Of a stretch of DNA of 64,000 nucleotides, positions 47,020-50,101 are shown in pieces (positions within the stretch are counted from its first letter, which is position 1; the number at the start of each line of letters is the position of its first letter). A program made the position numbers and the translations under genes. The notes under the pieces were generated by a model that had not been told where the DNA came from, searched no databases, and was given only the letters and a program-made list of their open reading frames with translations. The stretch comes from Polynucleobacter sp. 15G-AUS-farblos (GTDB lineage Bacteria; Pseudomonadota; Gammaproteobacteria; Burkholderiales; Burkholderiaceae), in contig NZ_JACVOM010000004.1 in assembly GCF_018882445.1 (NCBI RefSeq), positions 62,001 to 126,000 on the forward strand. Direction: 5' to 3'.

Positions 47020-48540
47020 ATGTCATATCGTGAGCTCGTCTTTGCGGTAGTTGCTGAAACTGCTGAACCTTTAGGCGATGCCCTCCTCGATTTAGGAGCA
47101 CTGTCGGTCACTGTTGAGGACGATGCTGCAGGAGGTTACGATGAGAACCCTCTATACGGAGAACCAGGTCTTTCTCCCGAAGTGCAAGCATGGGAACGCT
47201 CCTCAGTCACAGCGCTTTTTAACCCTGAGATAGATGATTCAGGGAGCGCTGACTTTATTTCTGAGTTATTGGCTTCCCTCAAGGACGCAGGCTTTAATTT
47301 GGCCGCACCCCAAGAAAAAATTGTTGAAGAACAAGACTGGGTTCGATTAACCCAAAGCCAATTCGCTCCAATTCAAATTGGCGAGCGCATTTGGGTGGTG
47401 CCTTCTTGGCACGATGCACCCACCGATCCAAATGCAATCTGTTTAGCCGTTGATCCAGGTTTAGCCTTTGGGACGGGAAGCCATCCCACTACGCATTTGT
47501 GTCTACTATGGCTAGAGCAACAACGTAATTTACAAAACCAAAGTCTGCTCGACTACGGCTGTGGCTCCGGAATATTGGCGATAGCAGCAGCAAAATTAGG
47601 CGCAAAGCCGGTAGTTGGTACCGATATTGATCCACAAGCGATGGTGGCGGCACGCAGCAATGCGGAGATCAACAACACCGTGATTCGATTTGTATTGCCC
47701 AATGAAGATGCGCCTGAATTGGCAGCAGAAATCAAATACGACATCGTGATGGCCAATATTCTGGCCAATCCTTTGCAGGTGCTGGCACCAGCCCTCGTCA
47801 ATAAGATGCGCCCAGGCGGTCAAATTGTTTTATCTGGCGTACTTGCACGTCAAGCAGAAGAAGTGATCGCCACTTACAGCCAATGGCTCACGCTTTCCGT
47901 ATGGAGAGAGAGTGAAGGCTGGGTTTGCCTGCATGGCGCTCTTCCAAAAGACAAAGTGCAGCCTATTTCTGCGCCAGCTCAAAAAAAAAGTCTTAAATTA
48001 ATCCTGCTAGGTATTTTTTTAGTGCTCCTCCTCATCTTTGGTGAGCATCTTTCTAGGAATTCTTTATTACCCGCACTTGCACCTCGGATTGATGGCACAT
48101 CTCATGCAATGAGTGTGAAGGCTTTTTCCTTATTAAATCGTATTGATCAAAAATTATGTATGGCATTAGGCTGCATCAATCGCCCTGTAAGCGATTTTGC
48201 TGCGTGGAAAATAACTTCGGTTACGTTATCACCAGAAAACGCGCGAGAGGGCCTTAAAAACGCTCCAAATCAATCTGTGTTGGAAGTTGAAATACAAAAT
48301 CGCCTTGCTATTGCAGTTTTAGTACCGAATTTAGAAATTTCTCTGACTGATGCAGAAGAATCTGAACTGAAATCGATTCAATTAACGCCAAAAGAATGGT
48401 TACCCAGTGCATGGCAAGCATCTCATCCAGAATTTGCATCCAAGGGCGCGCCATCTGGTGAATTAATTCATGCGCAACTGCCAGTAACACTTCCTCTAAA
48501 TGCTGCAGGCTATCGTGTGCGCGTGCTTTATTCACAATAA
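47020..48540 (+). CDS. prmA: Ribosomal protein L11 methyltransferase (PrmA) fused to a membrane segment and DUF3426-like domain
   Basis: The first 305 or so residues are a complete PrmA: VDPGLAFGTGSHPTTHLCL, the SAM site LLDYGCGSGILAIAAAKLGA, and DIVMANILANPLQVLAP. PrmA trimethylates ribosomal protein L11. PrmA is normally about 295-300 residues, but this frame continues to 506. After a short linker (KDKVQPISAPAQKK) comes one membrane helix (about residues 325-342, LKLILLGIFLVLLLIFG) and a 165-residue domain resembling DUF3426. In relatives I recall a separate gene after prmA encoding a zinc-ribbon plus DUF3426 protein; here the zinc ribbon is missing and the remainder is joined in frame. An A9 tract sits at the junction. 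The topology implies a cytoplasmic PrmA tethered to the inner membrane, unless slippage releases it. Confidence 0.85.
   Translation: MSYRELVFAVVAETAEPLGDALLDLGALSVTVEDDAAGGYDENPLYGEPGLSPEVQAWERSSVTALFNPEIDDSGSADFISELLASLKDAGFNLAAPQEKIVEEQDWVRLTQSQFAPIQIGERIWVVPSWHDAPTDPNAICLAVDPGLAFGTGSHPTTHLCLLWLEQQRNLQNQSLLDYGCGSGILAIAAAKLGAKPVVGTDIDPQAMVAARSNAEINNTVIRFVLPNEDAPELAAEIKYDIVMANILANPLQVLAPALVNKMRPGGQIVLSGVLARQAEEVIATYSQWLTLSVWRESEGWVCLHGALPKDKVQPISAPAQKKSLKLILLGIFLVLLLIFGEHLSRNSLLPALAPRIDGTSHAMSVKAFSLLNRIDQKLCMALGCINRPVSDFAAWKITSVTLSPENAREGLKNAPNQSVLEVEIQNRLAIAVLVPNLEISLTDAEESELKSIQLTPKEWLPSAWQASHPEFASKGAPSGELIHAQLPVTLPLNAAGYRVRVLYSQ
47981..47996 (+). other. A9 slippery tract at the PrmA/DUF3426 junction with a minus-one stop
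   Basis: Nine A residues (47981-47989) are read CAA-AAA-AAA-AGT, so A-AAA-AAA is in slippery-heptamer phase. A minus-one shift, or one extra A in the mRNA, gives AAG-TCT-TAA and stops at 47994-47996, just before the membrane helix. No clear stimulatory stem or upstream Shine-Dalgarno was found. Confidence 0.45.
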
Positions 48541-49658: not shown

Positions 49659-49796
49659 TTAAGGACGTGTGCCAGTTGGGAAGGGCCAAGCAGCAGCAGG
49701 ATTCAACGCACTAGTCGCTGGTGCAGCTTTCTTAGCCGCGGGCTTTTTTACAGCAGAGCCCGCTTTCTTCGCAGCAGGCTTACTTACTTTTTTTTT
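49659..49796 (-). other. Minus-one-frame extension of the H1-like gene (conserved-looking C-terminal tail)
   Basis: From the A9 tract the minus-one frame stays open for 45 codons and ends at TAA 49661-49659. It reads on in the same style (KPAAKKAGSAVKKPAAKKAA) and closes with PATSALNPAAAWPFPTGTRP. From memory, H1-like proteins of related bacteria end with a similar NPAAAWPFPTG tail. A terminator follows within 20 bases. This is very likely the true C-terminus of the protein, reached by slippage or hidden by a one-base error. Confidence 0.75.
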
Positions 49797-50095
49797 GCTA
49801 CGCGCTTTTTTGCAGCTGGACGCTTCGCAGCAGCTTTTTTAGCAGCTGGACGCTTCTTAGCAGCAGGACGCTTTTTAGCAGCTACTTTTTTAGCAGCAGG
49901 CTTCTTAGCAGCTACACGCTTCTTAGCAGCAGGACGCTTTTTAGCAGCTACTTTTTTAGCAGCAGGCTTCTTAGCAGCTACACGCTTCTTAGCAGCAGGC
50001 TTCTTTTTAGCTACTTTTTTAGCAGCTGGTTTCTTAGCAGCTACTTTTTTAGCAGCTGGTTTTTTTGCAGCAGGTTTTTTCTTGGCGATTGCCAT
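49784..50095 (-). CDS. Histone H1-like (AlgP/HctB-type) lysine/alanine-rich DNA-binding protein, zero-frame part
   Basis: A 103-residue protein made almost wholly of Ala, Lys, Pro, Val and Arg in repeats such as PAAKKVAAKK. It resembles the C-terminal-domain-like bacterial H1 proteins that bind DNA and help organise the nucleoid. I start at the ATG at 50095, seven bases after AAGGAG; the ATG at 50101 is only one base from it. Two perfect 66-base copies (49853-49984) encode a duplicated 22-residue block. The frame ends at TAA right after an A9 tract, and the next 45 codons in the minus-one frame continue the protein. Zero-frame translation alone would lack the tail. Confidence 0.88.
   Translation of the reverse strand: MAIAKKKPAAKKPAAKKVAAKKPAAKKVAKKKPAAKKRVAAKKPAAKKVAAKKRPAAKKRVAAKKPAAKKVAAKKRPAAKKRPAAKKAAAKRPAAKKRVAKKK
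49786..49796 (-). other. A-AAA-AAG slippery sequence next to the zero-frame stop
   Basis: On the minus strand the zero frame reads GCA-AAA-AAA-AAG-TAA. A-AAA-AAG is the dnaX-type minus-one heptamer in exact phase, directly followed by the stop. The run is nine A residues. A 6-bp GCGGGC/GCCCGC stem occurs about 23 bases downstream, further than the usual spacing. Confidence 0.55.
49853..49984 (-). repeat. Perfect 66-bp tandem duplication within the H1-like gene
   Basis: Bases 49853-49918 and 49919-49984 are identical over 66 bases and encode two copies of RVAAKKPAAKKVAAKKRPAAKK minus-strand sequence blocks. Shorter degenerate repeats fill the rest of the gene. Such identity indicates a recent duplication or ongoing copy-number change. 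Confidence 0.9.
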
Positions 50096-50101
50096 AGTCA
50101 T

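Follow-up and report, generated by a model that had tools for sequence, protein, structure and literature searches.

In Polynucleobacter, a widespread freshwater genus, the gene of the L11 methyltransferase PrmA is joined in frame to a membrane helix and a DUF3426 domain, and a run of nine adenines (A9) at the point of joining very probably works as a slippage site. By analogy with what has been described for dnaX, we consider it probable from the sequences compared that this one gene gives two products, a soluble PrmA of 325 aa and a membrane-tethered PrmA of 506 aa, and this two-product model is well supported by comparison. If it is true, a conserved slippage site determines where in the cell a housekeeping enzyme of this genus is placed, and the gene fusion is one that retains access to the unfused product. 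It would also offer a way into the study of DUF3426, the envelope domain found beside prmA.

The Fused Gene

The window, that is, the whole stretch of 64,000 nucleotides that was analysed, contains the fused gene with the following features.

47020..48540, + strand: prmA-DUF3426 fusion ORF, 506 aa, the default product (ATG start, open reading)
47026..47937, + strand: PrmA domain, residues 3-306 (PF06325, E 6.8e-85; TIGR00406 above cut-off)
47981..47989, + strand: candidate A9 slippery run, codons 321-324 (CAA AAA AAA AGT), with A_AAA_AAA in frame 0
47998..48054, + strand: membrane helix, about residues 327-345 (hydropathy; predicted helix 323-353)
48013..48525, + strand: DUF3426 match, residues 332-502, covering the helix and the presumed periplasmic domain (PF11906 above cut-off; pLDDT)
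48157..48174, + strand: cysteine pair C380-x4-C385, invariant in 16 diverse fused proteins

An earlier note on this DNA had described an uninterrupted 506-codon frame with a complete PrmA and one membrane helix, and the open reading frame, Pfam, NCBIfam, and hydropathy all confirmed it. From the ATG, the assembly of the window reads 506 codons without a stop, with none between the two parts. The NCBIfam model TIGR00406 (prmA) scored 233.6 bits against a cut-off of 183.15 and was covered from position 1 to 288 of 288, and residues 327-345 were the most hydrophobic stretch of the C-terminal part of the fusion, inside the predicted helix. The C-terminal domain, which the note had called DUF3426-like, is indeed DUF3426: PF11906 gave 50.0 bits against a gathering cut-off of 27.7, rising to 53.1 bits when the C-terminal part was scanned alone with Pfam, and this was the one DUF3426 match above cut-off in the whole genome of the window. 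The lack of a zinc ribbon at the junction was also correctly noted, as no CxxC pair was found in the three forward frames across 150 nt at the fusion junction, and neither PF13719 nor PF13717 had a match above cut-off anywhere in the window genome.

The segments DYGCGSG and ANILANPL, which we take to be methyltransferase motifs of PrmA, are invariant across the same 16 diverse fused proteins. A C-x4-C pair is also present in 8 of 9 outgroup proteins that carry a zinc ribbon and DUF3426. Over 235 pairs the median dN/dS was 0.038 for the PrmA half and 0.140 for the DUF half, and purifying selection acts on both halves of the fusion. In the DUF3426 part, the codons of K397, K413, Q418, and Q426 (48208-48297) are almost invariant AAA or CAA across 120 fused genes. 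In the window, prmA shares its direction with accB and accC (both named by eye) and with the gene of a pfkB-family kinase (PF00294).

The AlphaFold model, built with 35 close relatives, was poor in the PrmA part (pLDDT below 50 across long stretches) and good in the helix and DUF part, with a block of pLDDT 66-92 from residue 331 onward. The best Foldseek matches of the fusion model were PrmA structures; beyond methyltransferases, Foldseek gave weak matches only (E 0.0038 or worse), and the sequence search of the PDB with the C-terminal part gave a single match at E 0.75, which is not credible.

Distribution of the Fusion

The genus-wide search covered 186 genomes, 184 of them with a match, and a second search was made on 39 odd ones. 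The locus was obtained for 181 of the 186; G052, G134, G140, G168, and G173 gave no usable locus. Considering that the full fused frame is present in 155 of these 181 Polynucleobacter-group genomes, a private assembly error is very unlikely, and the idea of a strain-specific fusion or an assembly artefact was rejected. The fusion is confirmed as real and genus-wide. The remaining 26 genomes, sorted by hand, comprised 15 with separate genes, three with a swapped register (G023, G030, and G112), three cut by a contig end (G116, G158, and G178), and five with a broken fusion locus (G031, G032, G033, G049, and G142), in which the DUF part, PrmA, or both are interrupted. In G033 (L087), a broken fusion like G032 (L086), the run has the length A8 and the frame of PrmA closes shortly past it; in G031 (L088) the PrmA part of the broken fusion is broken too.

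A profile of 16 fused proteins was also run against 399 genomes of the order and, among the matches listed, full-length ones were found only in seven congeners, the window genome included. In the family sample (135 of 150 genomes of other genera), none of the matches listed extends beyond query residue 363, and some other-genus genomes of this sample of 150 had no match.

Conservation of the Adenine Run

The junction was analysed in 154 fused genes, G057 being dropped from the 155 as its anchor residues differ. A run of at least nine A was present at the junction in 131 of the 154 (130 with A9 and one with A10). Over all 155 fused genes, the longest junction run was of nine A in 130, ten in one, eight in one, seven in nine, and fewer than seven in 14. 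The A9 is not compulsory in fused genes, since runs of at least nine are missing from 23 of the 154, whole clades among them, and it follows that the soluble form would not be needed everywhere or would be made otherwise. The base 5′ of the run is C in 124 of the 131 genes. In 120 genes the register is QKK (in one case EKK) with S, T, or R as the next residue, while five have LKKK or [PS]KKK (e.g., LKKKV) and six have VKKN or LKKK. Taking into account that the run is kept in three registers (120, 5, and 6 genes), the protein sequence alone is no explanation for it. It sits 9 to 30 codons past the PrmA end motif, and the surrounding linker is hypervariable in both sequence and length.

A conservation count on genes selected for A9 is circular; it was replaced by an unconditioned count on all 120 fused genes of the window's clade, unselected for the run, of which 112 have A9 and 8 do not. 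These eight are seven genes with QKKG or QKRG and A6-A8, plus G040. In the clade, third positions had 27 changes at the median, and those of the Q-K-K codons had 0, 0, and 3. For the 11-nt stretch of the run the count was 12; among 1265 windows taken from elsewhere in the gene the minimum was 19, and the first percentile stood at 37. The run is conserved at the nucleotide level and is the most conserved 11-nt stretch compared in the window's clade. The residue following the Ser varies (L, F, P, I, V), and the T in the third position of its codon is kept in 106 of the 120 genes.

It could be argued that the fusion is an ordinary genus-wide one and that the A9 is an idle Gln-Lys-Lys placed before the helix according to the positive-inside rule and written in an A-rich codon style. 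The run does directly precede the helix in the main clade, and over the first 300 codons of these genes Lys is written as AAA in 71% of cases and Gln as CAA in 79%. Furthermore, the DUF part has two more Lys columns with AAA in almost every gene, two Gln columns are likewise almost always CAA, and many columns of the fused genes keep a single Ser codon family, so that the codon choice at a single column is not unique to the junction. Nevertheless, we regard this explanation as rather unlikely, given that in clade I and the G013 group the run is placed some 10 to 40 residues ahead of the helix, or has a different register, that the third positions of its codons hardly change, that the three genomes of swapped register retain A9 as LKKK just before a stop, and that A9 is otherwise rare in the genome.

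Stops in the Alternative Frames

Just beyond the run, the other two frames of the window close at the following positions.

47994..47996, + strand: -1 frame stop (TAA) following K-S, the predicted end of a soluble PrmA of 325 aa (sequence reading)
47999..48001, + strand: +1 frame stop (TAA), reached with one A fewer, the predicted end of a soluble PrmA of 326 aa (sequence reading)

A -1 shift past the second AAA of the window reads AAG TCT TAA, the third codon being the stop. Among the 131 fused genes with at least nine A, 106 have a -1 stop no more than three codons away and 116 no more than five, against a background at all codon boundaries of those genes of 18.9% and 29.8%, respectively, the positions of this null not being independent of one another. 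The +1 frame has a stop within three codons in 9 of the 131 (14.1% expected) and within five in 91 (22.5% expected); only the -1 stop can be called close, because at three codons the +1 frame does not exceed what chance would give. In the main clade the -1 stop is found within three codons in 103 of 112 genes, a level reached by 6 of 485 columns. The earlier note had PrmA simply tethered to the membrane, which is probably wrong, since a conserved A9 closely followed by stops in the other frames points to a soluble PrmA being made from the same gene as well.

The genomes of swapped register present the opposite layout. In G023, G030, and G112 the run is read as CTC AAA AAA AAA CTC, a PrmA of 304 aa stops three codons later, and the DUF3426 frame is the -1 frame, so the unslipped reading would give soluble PrmA and a -1 slip would give the fusion. 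Their sister G121 has A10 and is fused in the default frame, with stops five codons past the run in the -1 frame and after one codon in the +1 frame. The default and the swapped layouts both allow a soluble and a fused product by a slip at the run, and this is the strongest argument that both products would be wanted.

The same variants bear on a contingency locus, in which replication slippage at the run would switch the membrane form on and off among cells or strains. It is true that A8 (G033), A9, and A10 (G121) occur and that these states alter the frame. However, the run is exactly nine in 130 of 155 fused genes and a switch should vary more among species, which makes this explanation highly improbable.

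Proposed Mechanism

In the two-product model, the unslipped reading would give the 506-aa PrmA, with a cytoplasmic methyltransferase head, one membrane helix, and a periplasmic DUF3426. Some reads would slip by -1 at the A9, either by addition of an A by the RNA polymerase or by a step back of the ribosome on A_AAA_AAA, and would find the TAA as third codon, releasing a soluble PrmA of 325 aa that has no helix. Most L11 methylation would fall to the soluble form; in the 506-aa form, PrmA would act as the cytoplasmic head of a DUF3426 protein, replacing the lost zinc ribbon. We infer a useful slippage rate, the use of both products, the membrane topology, and this division of labour over L11.

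Between the two routes, transcriptional slippage seems somewhat likelier than ribosomal frameshifting, because an SD-like motif is nearly absent upstream of the run (1 of 131 genes, with a background of about 8%) and there is no clear stem-loop downstream. The folding downstream of the run, calculated in 46 sequences, had a mean z of -0.4 to -0.7, and elsewhere it was -0.5 to 0.05; being slightly stronger than at most places, it leaves room for ribosomal frameshifting. A stem-loop stimulator had been considered from 14 sequences (mean z of -1.45 versus -0.26) and is not proposed here, as the larger set of 46, shuffled in a different way, brought the value down to between -0.4 and -0.7.

Recoding has already been proposed in the genus for another gene, as a paper on chlD frameshifting names Polynucleobacter duraquae (PMC9227772). 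In the main text of the GeneTack survey, neither prmA nor histone is mentioned. The literature search found no paper linking prmA or L11 methyltransferase with ribosomal frameshifting, and none on histone H1-like proteins with transcriptional slippage or with frameshifting in Burkholderia; prmA together with Polynucleobacter retrieved one paper, which by its title is about protochlorophyllide oxidoreductases. For DUF3426 the literature searched gave two papers, both of them about ZitP of Caulobacter and its relatives.

A Second Adenine Run in a Neighbouring Gene

The genome of the window (2.2 Mb) has four A9 runs on both strands, about 30-fold fewer than the roughly 130 that the dinucleotide composition of the window predicts when extrapolated to the genome. 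The depletion is visible genome-wide only: the window itself contains two A9 runs, zero runs of exactly 8, and 17 of seven, and these two A9 runs are not few in comparison with shuffles of the window, which average 3.5 A9 runs per 64 kb and hold at least two in 74 of 100 cases. Over 81 genus genomes searched, the A9 counts range from 1 to 49. The four runs of the window genome lie between ORFs (L283), at an ORF start (L286), at the prmA junction, and in an H1-like gene with the following features.

49784..50101, - strand: H1-like, Lys/Ala/Pro-rich gene (name given by eye), default product of 105 aa
49788..49796, - strand: second conserved A9 run, with a frame-0 stop directly after one further base
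49659..49787, - strand: continuation of the H1-like protein in the -1 frame, ending LNPAAAWPFPTGTRP

This gene is found 1.8 kb from the prmA junction run, and its -1 frame continues in the Lys/Ala/Pro style. The survey of H1-like genes included 82 loci with the conserved C-terminal motif, some species being represented twice. A -1 shift after the A-run is needed in 67 of them (58 with A9, 7 with A8, and 2 with A10), and in 66 of those 67 there is a frame-0 stop at the run. Regarding the other loci, 11 are in the same frame, one needs +1, and three have no run and a single open frame. The H1-like gene may be taken as an internal control, suggesting by its sequence that A-runs serve as -1 sites in the genus. 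In the dnaX frame of the window genome, every A run is shorter than six.

Six of the seven genomes with QKKG or QKRG have A8 in the H1-like gene (L043, L044, L046, L077, L081, and L082), and the same is seen in two genomes with A9 in prmA (L040 and L047). In the nine separate-gene congeners in which it was found, the H1-like gene is always in the same frame (seven A10, one A11, and one A8). Meanwhile, G048 (L156), G127 (L161), and G126 (L162) lack the run in both genes, with no A9 in prmA and one open frame in the H1-like gene. A shared cause for the run states of the two genes is possible.

Taking both sites together, the slip at the A-run would set free versus inner-membrane PrmA and link the modification of L11 to an envelope domain, while the slip at the A9 located 1.8 kb away would decide the C-terminus of the H1-like protein. 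With slips at both neighbouring A9 runs, the two genes would share one slippage rate, possibly a common setting for translation and chromosome state. We put this forward tentatively, at slightly less than an even chance.

Origin of the Fusion

The layout before the fusion was sought in the outgroup, where 18 loci were fetched and an ORF filter was applied. In 9 of the 18, prmA is followed by an ORF of 265-573 aa with a zinc ribbon, a helix, and a DUF3426-like end, in agreement with what the earlier note had stated for related bacteria, and each of these nine has a pfkB-like match further along. A tenth locus showed zinc ribbon and helix only, and in the other eight none passed the filter. Six of the nine ORFs were scanned with Pfam, and all six had zinc ribbon and DUF3426 above cut-off. 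The second ORF of the 15 separate-gene congeners is short, with called lengths of 142-190 aa; it has a helix and a DUF3426-like end and overlaps prmA or sits at most 69 nt away, and the CxxC zinc ribbon is absent from it in all 15; the four that were scanned with Pfam had DUF3426 above cut-off and no zinc ribbon. In G202 (L184) a thiol peroxidase-like ORF (by eye) follows within about 40 nt of prmA, where a DUF3426 gene would be expected.

In the tree of AccC, PrmA, and PfkB the genus falls into three well-supported groups, with a branching order that was not resolved. The separate-gene genomes form one of them (10 rows); the fused genes make up clade I, with 12 rows that include those of swapped register, and clade II, with 29 rows. 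The AU test did not reject a single fused clade (p 0.556), nor did it reject a grouping of the separate genes with clade II (p 0.448).

These results allow us to consider whether one deletion took out the zinc ribbon and joined the two genes, leaving all PrmA membrane-bound, as the earlier note had it. The layout of the outgroup, with prmA and a zinc ribbon-DUF3426 gene side by side, and the fused frame free of stops speak for this explanation, and what the note says of the layout in related bacteria is supported. A single deletion may or may not lie behind both the loss of the zinc ribbon and the fusion, as the second gene of all 15 separate-gene congeners has no zinc ribbon either and one fused clade had the AU p value given above. 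The A9 with its near stops predicts soluble PrmA, and the default product is soluble in the three genomes of swapped register. As a whole, this explanation appears very unlikely.

Comparison with Known Systems

The frameshift site of Escherichia coli dnaX is A_AAA_AAG, accompanied by stimulators. According to PMC1088944, that gene undergoes -1 ribosomal frameshifting, and the junction of prmA resembles it in the -1 shift, here predicted, at an A-rich heptamer with a near stop after it. It differs in that the SD-like element is absent in 130 of 131 genes, there is no clear hairpin, and the heptamer is A_AAA_AAA. This last sequence is one of the ribosomal slippery sequences listed in PMC3711429.

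Slippage at A9 runs is known in bacteria: Thermus thermophilus dnaX makes its short product at an A9, with stops near in the other frames (PMC1088944 and PMC5009743). The prmA junction has this layout in common with it: an A9 within one ORF, a long product obtained unslipped, and early stops in the other frames. Unlike in Thermus, the slippage here is predicted, and the part lost would be a membrane helix and an envelope domain, so that the location would be set and not the type of subunit. In Citrobacter rodentium, tssM1 has an A11 with transcriptional slippage that gives two lengths, and both forms and their ratio are needed (PMC4256274). We find the same arrangement of an inner-membrane protein in two lengths by slippage at an A-run, predicted in our case; by contrast with tssM1, where the default product is short, here it is long, except in the three swapped genomes.

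Regarding the C-terminal part, ZitP is described in PMC5182063 with a cytoplasmic zinc ribbon head and a predicted periplasmic DUF3426 needed for the recruitment of CpaM. The fusion has in common with ZitP (PMC5182063 and PMC5182065) a single helix and a DUF3426 that here is presumed periplasmic, and it differs in that PrmA occupies the place of the N-terminal zinc ribbon of ZitP. It may be proposed that PrmA took over the place of the zinc ribbon head, while slippage would keep a soluble PrmA for L11.
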